Source: a virus
Length of the DNA stretch: 20,757 bases
Direction: 5' to 3' (one strand)
IMG/VR virus record: IMGVR_UViG_3300050821_017361
Span: 1 to 20,757 of that record
Shown: piece by piece, positions 1,128-18,211 of the stretch
Numbering within the stretch: the first letter of the stretch is position 1
Layout of the letters: every line of letters begins with the position of its first letter
Made by a program: the position numbers and the translations under genes
Notes under the pieces: generated by a model
Seen by the model: the letters and a program-made list of their open reading frames with translations, nothing else
Databases searched by the model: none
What the model was told of the DNA's origin: nothing

Positions 1128-3887
1128 TCATGCTGCAACTTGCGAGCCACTGCATACCGAGACCCAGTGGCTGCCGTCGTAGAAGACCTCGACTCCAGTA
1201 CCGTCGCCTGTGTTTTCATTCGGTTTGCGACCATTGCTGGTGAAGGCTTTCGCTCCTGCGCCCGGAGAGCTCGGCAGCGTTGACACCGTGTACGACGGGA
1301 GTACGGGAGGGCCGGAAAAGTGCGGGTTCACCGCATTCGTGCGGAACACTTCGTGCCAGGCCGATGTGCCGTCTGACACGACGTGATAGCGATCGTTTGG
1401 ACGCAGTGTGACGGGGCCGTTGTCGATCGTATCGCTGCCTGTCACCGCTGCGTTCACATTGGCCGAGCCGAGCACTGAGAAGGTGAATCCGGTACCGGCG
1501 GCGACCGTGCTCGCTGCCGGGAGAGTAATCGTGTATGGCGAGCCGCCGATCAGAAAGACGATATTGCCAGACACGTAATTTGGCAGAGTTGCGCTACTGG
1601 CATAGACGGTCTGCCAGCCAACCGCGATTCCCTTGCCGACCGGATAGGAGAGTGCTCCCTGGTTCCAGCGAAGTGTGTTCGTGACGCTGTCGTATGCGAG
1701 CTGACATGTGTTGGTGGGTTCAAAAGCGATCGCGTGCCCAGCGGCCATGCGGATCGCTGCCGCTCCCGCCATCTGTTGGGCGCCGGTGGTGTCCAGCACC
1801 GATGTCGAAAATGGCACATTGACGTTGAAGACTCGATAGGCCTGACCTGTGCATCCCGCGTCAAGATAGACGCCGATGATCGTGCTGACCTCGACAGGCG
1901 CCCCTGACGTGTTGTGCTGTCCAATGACCAGAGACTGGATCTGACGCATGCCGCCGTCGTCGGGACCATTGCCGAACCAGTCCATCTCTACGGCTATTGA
2001 GGAAGCCGCCATGCTGGATGGCTGGCCGGTAGTGTCCCGGTATTCGAGGCACGCGGCCCAAAGGTTGGGCTGCGGCAGAGCCTTGCCCGAGGAATTCAGG
2101 CCGACGTTCTGCCTGATCGTCTGCACGTAGCGCCCGACATGCTCGGCAGCAGGAGCGCCGCTTGGAGTTTGTGAGCCGCACCATAGCAATCTGTCGACGC
2201 CGCCCCAGACGAAATTGCCAGGGCTGTTGTATATGATCGTGTCATTGCGGGTGTTTGCGATGACCGCACCGCCGGTTGGTCCACCGCTGTGGTTGACGAT
2301 GTAGGATGAATGGGCCACAGCGAAGTCTGTGGGCTGGGAACCGTTCTGCGAGACCTCGACGCTGGCTGAACTGTTTCCAACGACGATCCCAGGCAAATAA
2401 TTGCTTGCGGGGCTGACGCCACCTGGAATTGTATCCGCCAGTGGCGTGCCGTCGGGCAGCGATGTACCGTCGACTATCCACTTTACCCGCTTGGTCAGGG
2501 GGACACCCCAGCTGGGCGGAGGCTGCAGCACGGTGACGCCATTCGGCACATGGATGACCGAGCCTGCCGCGGCTGCTTGGTAGGCCGCCGTGAATGCGGC
2601 GGTGTCGTCCGTGACTCCATTGAGCTGTGCGTTATAGGGGGCCGAGCGAACGTTTATGACGCCGGTGTTGCTGCCGCTCGCGGAATCCACGTAGCGCTTG
2701 GTTGCGGCCTGCAGGACCGATGTGGGATCCCCTACCAAGGTCAGCGCGCCGGTAAGCGTGCCACCGGCGATGGGAAGGGCGGAGGAGACCTGGCCGTCAA
2801 CGTACTGTTTCGGCGCCGCCTGGAGCGGTTGGGTAGGACTGGATGGCAGCGACAGTGGACCCGTGAGGGTGCCGCCGCTGATTGGCAACGATACAGCCGC
2901 CTGCGCATCGACGTAGTGCTTCGTGGCTGCCTGCATTGACAACGTGGGGTCGGCTGCCAGCGTGAGGACGCCTGTGAGCGTACCACCCGCCTTGGGCAAT
3001 GCGCCGCCTACCTGGGTATCGACGTATCCTTTCGTCGCAGCCTGCAGCGGAGCTGCCGGATCCGCAGCAAGTACTAGAGGTCCAGTAAGTGTGTCGCCGG
3101 TGCGCAGCACACGCGTATCGGCGTACTGCTTTGTCGCTGCCTGAAGCGAAGCTGTGGGATCCGCCGATAACGTCAGAGCGCCAGTGAGTGTGCCGCCAGT
3201 TCGGGGTACCGCGGTGGCGACCTGCCCATCAACGTATTGCTTGGTGGCCGCCTGCAACGACGTGGTAGGATCGGCGGCCAAGGTCAGTGCGCCCGATAGA
3301 ACACCACCTGTTTTCGGAACTGCTGTCGCGATCTGTGCATCCACATACCGCTTCGTTGCTGCCTGCTGGGACGTCGAGGGATCGGCGGCCAGAGTCAGTG
3401 CACCGGTCAGCGCACCCCCCGCTAGTGGTAGAGTATCGGCGGCAAGGTCACCGAGTTGGGTTGGCGACTTAGCGCCGGTCGGTGTCACCAGAAGATGGCT
3501 GATATCAACGTTCGCGATACCGGCGAGCCCGCTCATGAACTGACTGTAGCTTACGGCGGTGTTGCTGCCGGCTTGCCCGAGCGGAACGAGGTCGCCGCCG
3601 GCGGGAACCGTGCCAGCGGGCAGCGATGCGACGTTGAAAGGCGCAGCATTGGCCGACAGACCGCCATTGATCAGGGCGAGATTGGCGCCGATTATGATTT
3701 GCTCGGGTGTGCCCGTGCCACAGCTGATACGGCCCAGCAGCGTTCCGGAACTGATCGCAAGCTGCGATTGGACGCCTGCCAGAACCTGCGCCCGGGTCAC
3801 CTTGCGAGCGATGCCGCTTTGGCTGACCAGCAGCTCGTCGGTATCGGACGCTGCCGTGGCGGGCGCGAGCTGATCGATTGTAGGCAT
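1128..3887 (-). CDS. Long tail fibre with seven 37-residue repeats and pectate-lyase-like motif
   Basis: 919 residues. Residues 1-150 are an N-terminal tail-attachment part (LVSQSGIARKVTRAQVLAGV). Residues about 153-408 are seven repeats whose cores are GGTLTGALTL, AADPT and LQAATKQYVDGQV. Residues from about 409 read GVINVRSAPYNAQLNGVTDD and TAAFTAAYQAAAAGSVIHVP. That 'GV.DDT.A......A' motif opens pectate-lyase-like beta-helices in phage tailspikes. The remaining part is beta-rich, with YHVVSDGTSAWHEVF near residue 835 and a final LPSSPGAGAKAFTSNGRKPN then GTGVEVFYDGSHW. This C-terminal pattern is shared by many phage fibres. It is the main receptor fibre or spike. I see no obvious catalytic set for polysaccharide cleavage, and the beta-helix is not proven. 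Confidence 0.88.
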   Translation of the reverse strand: MPTIDQLAPATAASDTDELLVSQSGIARKVTRAQVLAGVQSQLAISSGTLLGRISCGTGTPEQIIIGANLALINGGLSANAAPFNVASLPAGTVPAGGDLVPLGQAGSNTAVSYSQFMSGLAGIANVDISHLLVTPTGAKSPTQLGDLAADTLPLAGGALTGALTLAADPSTSQQAATKRYVDAQIATAVPKTGGVLSGALTLAADPTTSLQAATKQYVDGQVATAVPRTGGTLTGALTLSADPTASLQAATKQYADTRVLRTGDTLTGPLVLAADPAAPLQAATKGYVDTQVGGALPKAGGTLTGVLTLAADPTLSMQAATKHYVDAQAAVSLPISGGTLTGPLSLPSSPTQPLQAAPKQYVDGQVSSALPIAGGTLTGALTLVGDPTSVLQAATKRYVDSASGSNTGVINVRSAPYNAQLNGVTDDTAAFTAAYQAAAAGSVIHVPNGVTVLQPPPSWGVPLTKRVKWIVDGTSLPDGTPLADTIPGGVSPASNYLPGIVVGNSSASVEVSQNGSQPTDFAVAHSSYIVNHSGGPTGGAVIANTRNDTIIYNSPGNFVWGGVDRLLWCGSQTPSGAPAAEHVGRYVQTIRQNVGLNSSGKALPQPNLWAACLEYRDTTGQPSSMAASSIAVEMDWFGNGPDDGGMRQIQSLVIGQHNTSGAPVEVSTIIGVYLDAGCTGQAYRVFNVNVPFSTSVLDTTGAQQMAGAAAIRMAAGHAIAFEPTNTCQLAYDSVTNTLRWNQGALSYPVGKGIAVGWQTVYASSATLPNYVSGNIVFLIGGSPYTITLPAASTVAAGTGFTFSVLGSANVNAAVTGSDTIDNGPVTLRPNDRYHVVSDGTSAWHEVFRTNAVNPHFSGPPVLPSYTVSTLPSSPGAGAKAFTSNGRKPNENTGDGTGVEVFYDGSHWVSVCSGSQVAA
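2664..3431 (-). repeat. Seven tandem repeats of about 111 bp in the tail fibre gene
   Basis: Seven in-frame units of 37 codons, one of them 34, encode the GGTLTG...QAATK pattern. On the plus strand the repeat anchors gcctgc or gcctga appear near 2705, 2818, 2930, 3033, 3140, 3251 and 3362. They are imperfect copies, so they are protein-level repeats rather than recent duplications. The fourth unit begins LRTGDTLTG and the sixth has PSSPTQPLQAAPK, the two most diverged ones. Confidence 0.85.
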
Positions 3888-3966
3888 GATCGAGACGACC
3901 TCTCAGCGACGCGCCATAGACTGCACGGGCTGTAGTGGGTTGCGAACAGAAGTGGCAGGCCCGGTG

Positions 3967-4449
3967 CTACGACGTGAGAACTGGATTGCCATTCTGGTCG
4001 GTTAGCACGACTCCGGTGTCGGTGATCAGAGCGTTTGGTGGAATCGGCGGCACCGACAGATAGAGTACGGGCAGCAGAATGGTACGATTGATTGCGCGGC
4101 CGTTCACCGTGGTAATTACGAGGTTCACTGTGTAGATCGTCCCCGCCTGACCGCCCGACAACCACACGATAGCTAACGCGCCGTCAGTCGTCGCGCTGTT
4201 TAGAACGAGATCCCCGGGATTCGCCGGTTCAATCGTCACATCGAGCGTGGCAATGGCATCACCATCATTGCCGACCAGCGCCGGTGATATGTCGAACTGG
4301 TAATCCAGCACATCGGCGGGATCCTTCGCCGGCCAGTTGAGAGGTGGCGGAGCCAGCGCTGTTGAGCCGCGTGGCACCGGGATGAACGAATCCAGCACAA
4401 CAGTCCGCGCGTTGCTGGGTTTCCAGACGTGTGTTGCTGGAGTGGGCAT
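3967..4449 (-). CDS. Fibre-tail adaptor-like protein
   Basis: 160 residues, ribosome binding site AGGAG seven bases before the ATG. The text LNWPAKDPADVLDYQFDISP, then ALVGNDGDAIATLDVTIEPA and IVWLSGGQAGTIYTVNLVIT, followed by TVNGRAINRTILLPVLYLS, matches the family called phage fibre-tail adaptor proteins ('F..KDP.D..DY..D.S..L...D.I'). In these, an Ig-like fold carries 'WLSGG..G..Y.V...I.T..GR'. The C-terminal 25 residues hold a short domain (GVVLTDQNGNPVLT) that may contact the fibre. The gene stands between fibre genes, so a role joining fibre and tail is likely, but the biochemical role is not shown by sequence. Confidence 0.7.
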   Translation of the reverse strand: MPTPATHVWKPSNARTVVLDSFIPVPRGSTALAPPPLNWPAKDPADVLDYQFDISPALVGNDGDAIATLDVTIEPANPGDLVLNSATTDGALAIVWLSGGQAGTIYTVNLVITTVNGRAINRTILLPVLYLSVPPIPPNALITDTGVVLTDQNGNPVLTS

Positions 4450-10939: not shown

Positions 10940-12040
10940 TCAAGTGCCAGTCGGAGCGCCGGGATAGGTCGCGTTCATCCGTGGGTCGATTCCCGTCGTC
11001 ATCGCGCCCGGCCGTGATGCGCTATTCTCAAGGTGATCGATCACCCAACGGCCAAGCTGTGCGCCATCCAGTACAAGCACCCCTTGACGCGGTTCTGAGC
11101 TCACTTGCTGTGATTCCGAGGAAGCGGATGCCGACTCGGACGCAGCAGGCTTCGCGAACGCATTGTTAACCAGAAAGGATGGCGCGGTCGTGTTTGGCGC
11201 GGTACCGGAACCATCTACTGGGGCGGCAAAAGACGCTGCAGGCATATTCGTCGCCAGTCCCAACGACGGGCCTGGAGCCATTGTGTCCATCATTATCTGT
11301 TGCACGCCGGTCTGCGACGTTACATCACTTCCATGAGTCTTTGTCACGTGTGCGGCCATAATTTGCAGTGGGTTGGTCATTTTCAATGATGACTGTGTAG
11401 TGACAGGGGCCTTGGGCGAAATCGATGGCGTAATTGAAGGCTCAGTCATCGAGTTCGCACTGGGGGATGATAGTAAGGTCGAGGATGATGAAGGCGCTTG
11501 TAGTGGCGTTGAAGCGGGAGCATAAACCGGTTTGGGCTTACTGGGGGCAGGCATTGCCATCCGTTGTGTTGCCGGTAACACCGTTGACGATATCGCTGTC
11601 GGCAGCTGCGCTCTTTGAGAGGATCGTGGTGTATCTTGACGTGGTAGGTTATAACCTGAGGACAAGTTCTCACTGGGTGGCGAGACTTTCACTTGATGCG
11701 TCCATGCGGCCTCATGCGGCTGCGTTGGCGAAACTAAAATTTCGTGCGCTGTTGGTCGATCATCCGTGCGGGTCGCCCTCAGCTCCGGTACGTTCGCGCG
11801 TGATGATCCCATACTGGCCTCTGTCGATTGCCGAACATGCAAAGGTACGACAATCGGGGCCATGTTGGCGCTGAATGGACTCAACCTGCCACCGAGTTGC
11901 GTCATTGTTCTCAACATTGCGCTGGAGGATGCAGTACGATCCAGTGCCTTGAGCTCAGGCTCCAGCATCGCGATCATGCTGGATACGCCGTGGCCCAGCG
12001 CGAGCTTGGTTCCAATCGTCGGAGCCTCGTCGACGGTCAC
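10940..12040 (-). CDS. Tail tape measure protein, unusually short
   Basis: Only 366 residues from GTG at 12040, which overlaps the GT stop as GTGA; a TTG at 12070 in the same frame would give 376. The N-terminal part is helical (SSMIAMLEPELKALDRTASS, LRTMTQLGGRL). Residues about 75-310 are Pro/Ser/Thr/Ala-rich and probably disordered (PAPSKPKPVYAPASTPLQAP). The C-terminus LVLDGAQLGRWVIDHLENSA, then SRPGAMTTGIDPRMNATYPG, resembles the terminal segment of tail proteins at this position ('G..MADHLA......P..G.T..D.R..P..PG'). Its place after G/GT and before the DNA_circ_N gene makes it the tape measure, which sets tail length and exits into the host. Using about 0.15 nm per residue, the tail would be near 55 nm. 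No membrane segment is seen. It could also be a chaperone-bound protein with another role. Confidence 0.65.
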   Translation of the reverse strand: MTVDEAPTIGTKLALGHGVSSMIAMLEPELKALDRTASSSAMLRTMTQLGGRLSPFSANMAPIVVPLHVRQSTEASMGSSRANVPELRATRTDDRPTAHEILVSPTQPHEAAWTHQVKVSPPSENLSSGYNLPRQDTPRSSQRAQLPTAISSTVLPATQRMAMPAPSKPKPVYAPASTPLQAPSSSSTLLSSPSANSMTEPSITPSISPKAPVTTQSSLKMTNPLQIMAAHVTKTHGSDVTSQTGVQQIMMDTMAPGPSLGLATNMPAASFAAPVDGSGTAPNTTAPSFLVNNAFAKPAASESASASSESQQVSSEPRQGVLVLDGAQLGRWVIDHLENSASRPGAMTTGIDPRMNATYPGAPTGT

Positions 12041-12554
12041 GTTCGCGGTTTCCAGTGCAAGGTTCGCCAATCGAATGCTCTGCCATCCAATGTGCCGAGT
12101 GCGACCACAAAAGCCATCCGCTCATCAGTTGGCAGGCTAAACGCAACGTCGAACGGCACCCCATTCCGGATCAGATAGAGGCAGTCGATCAGGTCAGGGT
12201 GCCGACTCAGTTTCCCGCGTTGGCTACCAGCTCCTCGGAAGTGGGGTCCGCCGATTGTTGCAATGCCAGTGCGACAGCCGCAACCCCCGCGTCGCCAAGT
12301 CGACCAACCATGGTTTCGATCTGAATTTCGTTGCATGGCGGGGGCACCGGCACATCGTCGATCGCAGCCACTGAAGAAGCTATCAGTGCCATCCCCAGCC
12401 AGGGTTGATTCTGGGCCAGCAACGGACCGGCCGCTTTGAAAAGCCGCAGTCGATCGAGAGCGGTGAGCCTGCGGATGGTGATGCAGCGACCGCCGCCGTC
12501 GATGACGGTTTCGGTGGTGGATGCTGCCGTAAGTATTGATGCAGTGGGAGTCAT
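12037..12554 (-). CDS. Tail assembly chaperone long form (GT) by -1 frameshift
   Basis: A ribosome that slips back one base on GGGAAAC (12216 down to 12210) skips the TGA at 12209-12207. It then reads on in the -1 frame for 57 codons to TGA at 12039-12037, giving a product of about 172 residues. The added part reads LSRHPDLIDCLYLIRNGVPF, then DVAFSLPTDERMAFVVALGT, and GRAFDW. This is a natural protein sequence, with the 'F..A..L....R.A..VALGTLDGR.F' pattern of T-type extensions. It has no start codon or ribosome binding site of its own, which supports production by frameshift. In lambda and many long-tailed phages the G and GT forms are made in a fixed ratio for tail assembly. The extension ends in a GTGA overlap with the tape measure start. 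Confidence 0.8.
12207..12554 (-). CDS. Tail assembly chaperone (G-type)
   Basis: 115 residues between tail tube and tape measure genes, the fixed place of tail assembly chaperones. The text shows VIDGGGRCITIRRLTALDRL and then LRLFKAAGPLLAQNQPWLGM with an acidic helical tail (SADPTSEELVANAGN). This is the pattern of the 'mutable' chaperone family with a beta hairpin followed by helices. The chaperone binds tape measure protein during tail assembly and is not in the virion. The last sense codons before the TGA form a GGGAAAC slippery heptamer, so a longer -1 frameshift protein is predicted (separate entry). The start overlaps the tail tube stop by one base. Confidence 0.85.
   Translation of the reverse strand: MTPTASILTAASTTETVIDGGGRCITIRRLTALDRLRLFKAAGPLLAQNQPWLGMALIASSVAAIDDVPVPPPCNEIQIETMVGRLGDAGVAAVALALQQSADPTSEELVANAGN
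12210..12216 (-). promoter_or_regulatory. Programmed -1 ribosomal frameshift site GGGAAAC
   Basis: The heptamer GGGAAAC fits the X XXY YYZ rule in the zero frame (G GGA AAC) and sits immediately before the TGA of the chaperone G gene. Both tRNAs can re-pair in the -1 frame (GGG AAA). A short inverted pair downstream (AGTCG at 12207-12203 with CGACT at 12187-12183) could form a weak stem as stimulator. Lambda uses the close relative GGGAAAG at the same gene junction. The heptamer and open -1 frame are seen; the use of it is inferred. Confidence 0.8.
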
Positions 12555-12994: not shown

Positions 12995-14557
12995 TTACGC
13001 TGGCTGCCCAGTGGGCAATGTCTGGCGGGATACCTGCACGGTCTGGCCGCCTTCGATGTTGACAATGAACTTTTCGTTGATCGCCTGGTATTGTACCTGA
13101 GCGTCCGATTGTACGTAGCCGAGATCAGTCCTGCTGTCGGGGTTGTTAGAAGTGTCGCAGATCACGCTGAACGGCAGACTACCGTCGGTGCTGCCAAGTA
13201 GACCTTGCCCGAGCATGTTTTGCAGGAATGACAACTGTGTCGAACGGATTCGCAGGAACAGGTCCGAGGTGATCACCTGACCGACAAACAGCCCCATACC
13301 GGCAGCGAGCGTCGCTGCGATGTAGTTGGTCAGCCGAGTGTAATTGTCACCGTTGATTGCCGCATTGGTTGATGAGTTGTGGCCGCCGCGTACCCCCCAG
13401 AACGTGCCGCCAGGCTGCGGGCTGCTGATCACGTCAATGCCCGCGCCCAACAGTACGGCCAGATCCGCGGACGAATAGGAGGAGTTCTGACCTGAGCCGG
13501 GCGTGCCAGACTTCTGGCTGCCGATCACGCTATAAAGCTGTTTGTTCAGACTGGATTGTTCGGGCGAAAGATTCGCAAGGCGTCCGGCGGCGAACCCCTG
13601 CGGTGACACGAGGCGAATCATGGCGTTGACCTGATCGGACCACCACAGCCAGTCACCGAACATCAGCTTGGCCGCGTAGCTGTCCAGTCCCGCCTGCTGC
13701 TTGACCGTGACCGCGTTTTGGATGGTGTCTCCAGCGGGACCGGTGAGGATCATGTAGGTCCCTTCCTGGAGCCCAAATCCCGCCTGGGTTGTCCAGTAGT
13801 CAGGATCATCGGCATCCGCCAGAATCGCAATGCCGCAGCCCTGCCCGCGAAGCGAGTACATGCCCGAGCGGGGGGGAATATCGGTGCCTGCAAGGCCCGT
13901 CACCGTAACGTTGACTGCGCCATCCGAACCGGCCGTCGTCGATCCGAGCGCGATGGAGAATTGGCTCGGTGCAATGGTGGCTCCGCCGGCGCTGGCGACG
14001 ATCAACTGTGAGGGGCCTCGCTGTGGACCCTGTCCCTGGTTTACGGCCGTCACAAGGGTCGAACAGAAAACTGCACCGGATCCCGCTATGTTGTCGTAGA
14101 CTTCCGGTTGCAGACCTGGCAACGAGACGGTCAGGCGCCAGGTATTCGCCCTTGATCCCGTTGTCAGTGCCAGGATAACCAGATTGCCGAGCGACCCAGT
14201 GTTAAGCGCAGTAAAGGTCACTGTCGTTCCGGCGAGGATGGTCTGCGCAGCGGAGTCGGTATTGTCGGTGACCCGGACACAACGGAAGTTCTGTGCGCCT
14301 TGCTGCACCGCTGTTGCAACCTGGGTGCCCATGTCGTACTTGCGTGCCAAAATCGGACCAAAGCCCTGTGCATAGTCGGCCATGGTGGCCACGATGACAG
14401 GTTGTCCGACCGGTCCCCAGGACGCAGTGCCGATGACGCCAATTATGTTTGTCGGCACCCCATTCAGAACCAGGTTCTGTGGTGGGACAATCTGGACATA
14501 CAGATCCGGCACTACCAGCGCTGTGGTGTTGATACTGCCCTGCTGAACAATCGGCAT
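12995..14557 (-). CDS. Contractile tail sheath protein
   Basis: 520 residues from the ATG at 14557; a longer start at 14593 would overlap the preceding 49-residue gene. The N-terminus MPIVQQGSINTTALVVPDLY and then GVPTNIIGVIGTASWGPVGQ is the diagnostic beginning of Mu gpL/P2 FI-type tail sheath proteins ('PGVY......P......GIVG.A..GP'). The middle has AILADADDPDYWTTQAGFGL and the C-terminal third FWGVRGGHNSSTNAAINGDN followed by YTRLTNYIAATLAAGMGLFV. This matches the C-terminal sheath domain 'W.VRT......Y.RL..YI...L'. The end SDAQVQYQAINEKFIVNIEG fits the domain that binds the tail tube. It forms the outer sheath that contracts on infection, so the tail is of the myovirus type. The stop TAA lies 12 bases before the tail tube ATG. 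Confidence 0.93.
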   Translation of the reverse strand: MPIVQQGSINTTALVVPDLYVQIVPPQNLVLNGVPTNIIGVIGTASWGPVGQPVIVATMADYAQGFGPILARKYDMGTQVATAVQQGAQNFRCVRVTDNTDSAAQTILAGTTVTFTALNTGSLGNLVILALTTGSRANTWRLTVSLPGLQPEVYDNIAGSGAVFCSTLVTAVNQGQGPQRGPSQLIVASAGGATIAPSQFSIALGSTTAGSDGAVNVTVTGLAGTDIPPRSGMYSLRGQGCGIAILADADDPDYWTTQAGFGLQEGTYMILTGPAGDTIQNAVTVKQQAGLDSYAAKLMFGDWLWWSDQVNAMIRLVSPQGFAAGRLANLSPEQSSLNKQLYSVIGSQKSGTPGSGQNSSYSSADLAVLLGAGIDVISSPQPGGTFWGVRGGHNSSTNAAINGDNYTRLTNYIAATLAAGMGLFVGQVITSDLFLRIRSTQLSFLQNMLGQGLLGSTDGSLPFSVICDTSNNPDSRTDLGYVQSDAQVQYQAINEKFIVNIEGGQTVQVSRQTLPTGQPA

Positions 14558-16888: not shown

Positions 16889-18211
16889 TCAGCCGATGTG
16901 CTCGACCATCACGGCGCGCTTGAACGCGGCGTTGGTCGCGGTGGGAACCGTGGTCGGATTGGTCGTGGTGTCGGACGGTGCGCAGAAACCCCCGATCCAG
17001 TACCAGGACTGGGCGATAATCTGCTGAAGGCGATCGATCGGTTCGCGTGTTACCATCGCCACGTCATCGACGACAGCAACGATCGAGTCCTTCGGTATAA
17101 CATCCTCGGCCGCCATTCCGGCAAAGTCGCCCTCGATCAGCGCGCCCTGGCCGCAGACGATCGGCCGTCTTACCATCAGGCCGGCGAGTGTCGGGTGTGG
17201 CTGCACGAAGGCCTCGGTCGTCGGGATAAAACGCAAACCCAGGAAGTCGTTCGTCATGCCTTGGCGAAACACCTGGTTTGCTGACGTGGCACCTTGGAAC
17301 AACTGCTTGAAGTCCGGATCCGCAAACAACTGGCGCGCAGAAACCGGATCGAGATAGCAGTTGTACACACCGTCGATTTCCGGCACGGCGTTCATGCGCA
17401 GTTTGGCGACCGCGTCCAGTAGGCCCGACATGGTCAGCACGTCAGTGGCAGTTAAGGCGGCGGTGGTGGCGCGCTGGGATGGCCGGACAACTACCGATGC
17501 ACTGGCTGCGGTCACGGCGTTTCCCGCCGTGCCGTCTGAGACCGATACGTTGCCCGAGAATGTCAGCGTGCCGGACACGCCATTCGGAGTGGTCGAGACA
17601 TTTGTGACGTCGGCCGTGACGCCGACCAGCGAGTAGACGTTGGCACCAATGGTCACGGTCAGCGGATTGGATGCGCCAACTGCCTGCTGCACGCCGTTGA
17701 CAAAGGCGTACTGGAAGCCGCGAACGTCATCGACCGTTACAGCAGTGCCAGTGCTTCCCAGCGTCGTCCGCACCCGCGAATTGCCACCGAAATAGCTGCT
17801 GAACAGGGCATTGCGCGCCAGTTCATCCAGGCTGCGCGCTGCCTGTTCACCATTCACATATGCATTTTGCAGAAACTGCGACGCAATGCCCACACGACTT
17901 GTGACCATGTTGAGGTCGGTCGTAGCGGCGTAGTGGTTGATTGTGATGGTGTATTGCTCCACACCCCAACCGGTCGCCGTCAGGCCGTTATCGAAATTGG
18001 TGTTCGTGTTGACCGCCAGCGGAGTGGTGATACTGGGTTTCAGCCCCGCGCGAGTCCTGGTCAGCGTTTCGCCAATGCCGACCGAGATCTTCACGCGATC
18101 AGCGCATGCACGATAGCCAAGGCGCGACTTCAGCGCCTGCTGAAACTCGCGCTCCAGGAAGCCTTGCTGAATGATTGGCTGCAAGGCCGCCGGGAAGTTC
18201 TGAATGCCCAT
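16889..18211 (-). CDS. Major capsid protein
   Basis: 440 residues. The gene sits after portal and scaffold and has a good ribosome binding site (AGAAGGGA, about 7 bases before the ATG). The N-terminal part reads FPAALQPIIQQGFLEREFQQ and RARAGLKPSITTPL-like text follows (TRTRAGLKPSI). The central SRVGIASQFLQNAYVNGEQA and the late YLDPVSARQLFADPDFKQLF plus GLRFIPTTEAFVQ are typical of HK97-fold capsid proteins of the N4-gp56-like group. Residues about 165-250 are Gly/Thr/Val/Ser-rich and beta-strand-like (NPLTVTIGANVYSLVGV, SGTLTFSGNVSVSDGTAG). They look like an insertion domain on the capsid surface. The C-terminal text YWIGGFCAPSDTTTNPTT resembles other phage capsid tails. The order and length make the call strong; the exact fold group is inferred. 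Confidence 0.88.
   Translation of the reverse strand: MGIQNFPAALQPIIQQGFLEREFQQALKSRLGYRACADRVKISVGIGETLTRTRAGLKPSITTPLAVNTNTNFDNGLTATGWGVEQYTITINHYAATTDLNMVTSRVGIASQFLQNAYVNGEQAARSLDELARNALFSSYFGGNSRVRTTLGSTGTAVTVDDVRGFQYAFVNGVQQAVGASNPLTVTIGANVYSLVGVTADVTNVSTTPNGVSGTLTFSGNVSVSDGTAGNAVTAASASVVVRPSQRATTAALTATDVLTMSGLLDAVAKLRMNAVPEIDGVYNCYLDPVSARQLFADPDFKQLFQGATSANQVFRQGMTNDFLGLRFIPTTEAFVQPHPTLAGLMVRRPIVCGQGALIEGDFAGMAAEDVIPKDSIVAVVDDVAMVTREPIDRLQQIIAQSWYWIGGFCAPSDTTTNPTTVPTATNAAFKRAVMVEHIG

Follow-up and report, generated by a model that had tools for sequence, protein, structure and literature searches.

Organization of the putative G/T cassette

The window, that is, the whole stretch of 20,757 nucleotides of viral DNA analyzed here, carries on its minus strand a group of tail genes in the order tail sheath, tube candidate, G/GT, tape-measure candidate and baseplate genes. 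The features relevant to the present analysis are the following:

12995..14557, minus strand: tail sheath gene (phrog_23, tail sheath, E 2e-43; 50% identity to the sheath of phage phiKX1)
12554..12982, minus strand: tail tube candidate, 142 aa (phrog_12993, unknown function; position after the sheath gene; phiKX1 homologue)
12207..12554, minus strand: putative G-like tail assembly chaperone, 115 aa, zero frame, ATG start (open reading frame, phrog_20383, predicted fold)
12210..12216, minus strand: slippery heptamer G_GGA_AAC adjoining the stop codon of G (sequence, related loci)
12207..12209, minus strand: zero-frame stop codon TGA adjoining the heptamer (sequence)
12195..12203, minus strand: 5' arm of a conserved stem (GGCACCCUG), beginning 6 nt after the heptamer
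12166..12193, minus strand: inner, more variable helix in the loop of the stem (12193-12186 with 12173-12166)
12155..12163, minus strand: 3' arm of the conserved stem (UGGGGUGCC; frozen synonymous codons)
12040..12210, minus strand: putative T-like extension in the -1 frame, 57 codons (LSRHPDLIDCLYLIRNGVPFDVAFSL...FDWRTLHW; conservation, -1-frame coding, predicted fold)
10940..12040, minus strand: next gene, 366 aa, GTG start, tape-measure candidate by position

The 115-aa G reading frame (12554..12207) terminates with GCG GGA AAC TGA and the GGGAAAC at 12216..12210, which sits in the X_XXY_YYZ phase on the minus strand, lies directly before the stop codon of G, as the original prediction had stated. 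Past the heptamer the -1 frame reads on as CTG AGT CGG... and encodes LSRHPDLIDCLYLIRNGVPFDVAFSLPTDERMAFVVALGTLDGRAFDWRTLHWKPRT over 57 codons until a TGA at 12039..12037 is reached. The GTG start codon of the next gene (12040..12038) overlaps this stop, so that the predicted GTGA overlap is indeed found at 12040..12037, and the next start is likewise located one base before the stop of the extension in 103 of 171 scorable relatives. As the string GGGAAAC occurs twice in the window and 1.9 occurrences are expected by chance, it is phase, place and conservation that decide about its meaning. The second GGGAAAC (17525..17519, minus strand) is also in phase and lies inside the major capsid gene. 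This copy serves as a control, because it has no zero-frame stop nearby, is followed by a short open -1 frame of 25 codons and shows a weaker fold with no comparable stem; its presence within the capsid gene is probably due to chance.

Conservation of the heptamer among related loci

With G, the extension and the tube candidate as queries, about 300 loci were gathered from viral contigs and bacterial genomes, in addition to the cultured phages phiKX1 and phiKX2; the heptamer was scored in 198 distinct related loci. The tube candidate as query led to phiKX1 and phiKX2 where G had not; a direct tblastn search with G found no match among 50,697 phage records, nor did a megablast search with the 10-kb module. 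The hosts are mostly Acetobacteraceae and, further out, include Rhizobium, Rugamonas, Paraburkholderia and Planctomycetes.

An alignment of homologues had been proposed as a check of the frameshift reading and its outcome favors that reading: a canonical slippery heptamer is present, in phase and at the same codon, in 193 of the 198 loci, far more than chance would give. GGGAAAC accounts for 161 of these heptamers, AAAAAAC for 30, and AAAAAAA and GGGAAAT for one each; the swaps between GGGAAAC and AAAAAAC preserve slipperiness and the X_XXY_YYZ rule. The A-site codon is AAC in 191 of the 193 heptamers and AAG in none. The zero-frame stop adjoins GGGAAAC in 72 loci and follows the heptamer 18 nt further on in 30 loci. 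Among the exceptions, L028 and L273 lack one base inside the heptamer (GGGAAC), which may be a sequencing error, and L216 has no recognised slippery site. In L219, from Rhizobium lusitanum (around 3990-4010), GGGGGAA stands directly before TAG in place of GGGAAAC. This is the 'fivetwo' motif, which is common in the frameshifts of SEA-PHAGES according to PRFect (PMC10885494), here seen in an alphaproteobacterial prophage.

The change of frame could in principle arise by transcriptional slippage rather than on the ribosome, and the AAAAAAC sites do offer a run of six A that might act as a polymerase slip tract. However, the window and most relatives have GGGAAAC, which contains no run longer than three, the sites keep strictly to the phase of tandem tRNA slippage, and the hairpin described below is spaced as expected for a ribosomal stimulator, which makes this explanation barely credible.

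The -1 frame evolves as a protein

That the 57 open codons represent natural protein sequence, as originally claimed, was borne out by the pattern of substitutions. In the stretch from the heptamer to the 3' stem arm, the share of differences that are synonymous is 56% in the -1 frame, as compared to 21% in the zero frame and 19% in the +1 frame, and a -1-frame synonymous excess is likewise seen further downstream. The extension is conserved across 26-31 diverse sequences. This type of analysis shows that the DNA downstream of the heptamer evolves as -1-frame protein and that, with the distant L224 and L225 as exceptions, the -1 frame constitutes a conserved protein module without a start of its own.

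The claim that the extension has no start codon of its own holds in effect, as an ATG near the junction occurs in only 5 of the 198 relatives. Taken literally it does not hold for the window, where the -1 frame happens to be open upstream of the heptamer as far as an ATG at 12336 and where an in-frame GTG is found at codon 18 of the extension. The upstream opening is not conserved, a -1-frame stop being present within 12 codons upstream in 39 of the 198 relatives. The extension's in-frame GTG is conserved, and one might consider that T is a separate protein, translated from an internal start such as this GTG or by reinitiation after the G stop, all the more as the phiKX1 annotation begins T at an internal ATG. 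Two relatives point in the same direction: T is apparently a separate gene without a slippery heptamer in L225 (3636-4170), where its own ATG overlaps the stop of G as ATGA, and in L224 (near 3950-4170), where it also has its own ATG. Against this explanation, the 17 codons before the GTG are themselves under -1-frame protein constraint, including the conserved LSRHPDLIDCLYL, an ATG near the junction is rare, and the retention of the heptamer would be left without a reason. A separate T is therefore considered very unlikely for the window. Homologues in which T is read in the zero frame or has a start codon to itself, named beforehand as evidence that would speak against frameshifting, were looked for, and about 2 of the 198 relatives, both distant, appear to encode T separately; for the group to which the window belongs the frameshift reading survives.

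A conserved stem downstream of the heptamer

The original prediction had described the downstream stem candidate as weak, a view that has to be given up. Counting from the heptamer, positions 14-22 pair with 54-62 (12203-12195 with 12163-12155) to form a strong, conserved stem of 9 bp behind a 6-nt spacer, which in the window is extended to ten pairs by C-G at 13-63. The 61 nt from 12207 on fold with -23.4 kcal/mol in the window (z -2.47 versus dinucleotide shuffles), and when the -1-frame codons were resampled synonymously, 6 of 1000 sequences reached so low an energy. In 91 relatives, folding energy averages -28.4 kcal/mol as observed versus -14.8 kcal/mol after synonymous resampling.

Among the relatives the nine pairs form in about 98% of cells. 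RNAalifold, applied to 93 diverse sequences aligned without gaps, yields a consensus that consists of the 9-bp stem alone, with changes on both sides at three pairs; the covariation score is 0.180 versus 0.037-0.070 when the partner is slid. Compensation is seen in L122 (GGCACUCCG/CGGAGUGCC), L133 (GGCACGCCG/CGGCGUGCC) and L221 (GGAACCCCG/CGGGGUUCC). The inner helix (24-31 with 44-51) is less constant and absent from the RNAalifold consensus; it shows 9 both-side changes at the column pair 27-48.

Both arms of the stem encode protein and part of the sequence conservation must be due to the protein. It might be argued from this that the heptamer is used and the stem is not a stimulator, the conserved bases reflecting constraint on the residues RHP and NGVP or some other role of the RNA: both arms code for highly conserved residues, and downstream structures are often but not always found at phage sites (PMC3483164). 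However, third positions within the arms are fixed to a degree far above background, with GGG in 172 of 181 distinct segments (25% background), GTG in 178 of 181 (42%) and CAC in 168 of 176 (62%), whereas the third position of the Pro codon just outside the arms is free, and the both-side changes in the three loci named above preserve pairing. Frozen third positions together with compensating changes argue for RNA structure, so that a stem without a stimulatory role seems improbable. From these patterns we infer that the stem stimulates frameshifting, and the earlier suggestion of an efficiency possibly governed by the heptamer alone finds no support in view of a conserved, covarying stem downstream.

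Other stimulatory elements were also considered. A search for a second shared helix found none longer than 5 bp besides the 9-bp stem, and a pseudoknot is thus not supported, although a short one may be present. An upstream Shine-Dalgarno-like stimulator of the dnaX type was rejected, as the respective 4-mers occur in 57 of 192 upstream stretches versus 52 expected after shuffling and are therefore not enriched. Rfam gave no match in the region.

Protein identities and neighboring genes

In the scan of 53 G relatives, each gave a match to phrog_20383 (unknown function) and 3 a weak one to phrog_508 (tail assembly chaperone). Pfam gave no match for G or T, and sequence profiles found no real match in the PDB. 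An AlphaFold2 model of G built from 52 sequences reached a pLDDT of 89.8, and in the PDB its fold ranks the HK97 tail assembly chaperone (2ob9) first, with moderate scores (Foldseek E 0.23; VIA-align Z 5.3, rmsd 4.5 over 95 residues, 10-15% identity). Other PDB neighbors are YqbN (3klu, Z 5.2) and the PICI protein 5ir0 (Z 4.1), and several tail assembly chaperones are among the BFVD matches. The first rank of the HK97 chaperone is what the chaperone hypothesis predicts, and the predicted fold, with its moderate match scores, would fit that hypothesis. The T module is also predicted to be well folded (pLDDT 90.5); the fold search revealed no PDB neighbor with a Z of at least 2, and its BFVD neighbors are weak.

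The firmly identified sheath gene and the Phage_base_V and Baseplate_J genes near the cassette indicate that the tail is contractile. The 142-aa gene is a tube candidate and the 366-aa gene a tape-measure candidate by position, no family match being obtained for the latter. At the tape-measure position, close relatives encode proteins of about 290-420 aa and distant relatives proteins of 570-740 aa; a tape measure of 366 aa, if this is the protein's role, would make for a short tail. The 366-aa protein is rich in Ala, Ser, Thr and Pro. Some relatives possess an extra gene of 110-130 aa between T and the tape-measure candidate. Elsewhere in the window (1128-3887, minus strand), a 919-aa protein whose N-terminal half contains many near-repeats (GGTLTGALTLAADPT..LQAATKQYVD) looks like a repetitive tail-fibre protein.

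Proposed frameshift mechanism and its significance

From the comparison of related loci it is highly probable that the locus is a tail-assembly-chaperone frameshift cassette of a contractile-tailed phage, belonging to an Acetobacteraceae prophage group, in which a hairpin-aided -1 slip would yield G-T. The comparison shows that the relatives keep slippery heptamer, -1-frame protein module and downstream stem as a set. We infer that frameshifting occurs in the following manner and at a low rate. Ribosomes decoding GGA in the P site, with AAC as the A-site codon, would meet the stem across the 6-nt spacer. Most of them would stop at TGA and release G of 115 aa. In a minority, both tRNAs would slip one base back on G_GGA_AAC to pair with GGG AAA, the next codon being CTG, and 57 more codons would then be read to give G-T of 172 aa. 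The 9-bp hairpin starting 6 nt downstream would help the slip. If both tRNAs slip after AAC has been read, the junction would be GN|LSR, and if the P-site tRNA slips first it would be GK|LSR. By analogy with lambda, the G part may bind the tape-measure protein and the T part may bring in tube subunits.

The combination of a hairpin with a heptamer that places AAC in the A site is typical of viruses of eukaryotes and works poorly in E. coli. In E. coli such heptamers slip poorly, because non-cognate re-pairing to AAA is poorly tolerated, and high levels require a ZZN made up entirely of purines or entirely of pyrimidines (PMC4066793). On mammalian ribosomes, by contrast, G_GGA_AAC ranks with the sites that shift most readily (PMC5009743). 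Most likely the heptamer, weak by E. coli rules, is raised by the hairpin to a low ratio of G-T to G, and a weak heptamer with a stem would suit the low ratio known from lambda, where the two chaperones are made at about 30:1 (PMC5009743). A more specific proposal, that the hairpin on an A-site-AAC heptamer sets the chaperone ratio and that AAC is perhaps favored through the tRNA-Lys(CUU) of the hosts, is put forward tentatively and considered rather doubtful. One possible reason for Z = C would be that many hosts possess tRNA-Lys(CUU) besides UUU, so that AAG would be read by a tRNA that re-pairs poorly to AAA. This idea is partly consistent with the host genomes: anticodon-loop patterns of tRNA-Lys(CUU) were detected in 12 of the 15 genomes scanned, and ARAGORN confirmed the five checked; the pattern was not found in two Rugamonas genomes, which also use AAAAAAC, and in one draft.

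What is new here is large-scale comparative support in an uncharacterised phage group, the covarying downstream stem and the strict AAC preference. The large and mostly unannotated Acetobacteraceae prophage group thereby receives firm comparative support for a frameshift cassette, G and T can be named and annotated correctly where PHROG family 20383 is still of 'unknown function', and the two separate hypothetical proteins listed for phiKX1 and phiKX2 by their depositors become correctable. Hundreds of natural variants offer a means of learning how a hairpin and an A-site codon jointly set a low frameshift rate, and this natural system sits in bacteria that have another set of tRNA-Lys than E. 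coli.

Comparison with known frameshift systems

The kind of site is known, as GGGAAAC has already been predicted in Burkholderia phage KL1 (PMC3483164) and is also given for Caulobacter phage Colossus (PMC3556154) and halovirus HCTV-1 (PMC5009743). In KL1 gp18/gp19, GGGAAAC likewise adjoins the TGA of the short protein, is followed by a predicted stem-loop and would give rise to a -1 product (PMC3483164). KL1 differs in being a siphovirus, with products of 142 and 264 aa, and its stem was predicted for one sequence without comparative support. The HK97 chaperone resembles the window's G as its top-ranked PDB fold but not in sequence, where no match is obtained.

The Komagataeibacter phages phiKX1 and phiKX2 (LC644975/LC644976; PMC8566455) possess homologous sheath, tube candidate, G and T genes, with AAAAAAC-TGA in the corresponding position and an identical GGCACCCCG/CGGGGTGCC stem; they differ in that G and T share 25-36% identity with those of the window and in a larger tape-measure candidate of 742 aa. 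For phiKX1 (L148 6429-6970, LC644975) the depositors list G and T as separate hypothetical CDSs, T starting from an internal ATG. AAAAAAC-TGA together with the conserved stem indicates a single frameshift cassette.

The G/G-T frameshift of phage lambda (Levin 1993; Xu, Hendrix, Duda 2004, 2013, as summarised in PMC5009743) is among the closest known systems, and the original reading of the locus as a lambda-like G/GT pair in a contractile tail is supported by heptamer conservation, -1-frame coding, gene order and predicted fold. As in lambda, a putative chaperone gene with two products lies in the window between candidates for the tube and tape-measure genes, both assigned by position, and a -1 slip site GGGAAA-Z is found near the end of G. 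In lambda the short form is abundant and the long form rare, and the same would be expected of the window's G and G-T. Lambda G shows no similarity to the window's G in the family libraries used. Compared to lambda, the window's cassette belongs to a contractile tail, has C and not G as Z, and carries a T module of only 57 aa, and its heptamer touches the stop codon and is followed by a strong, conserved stem.
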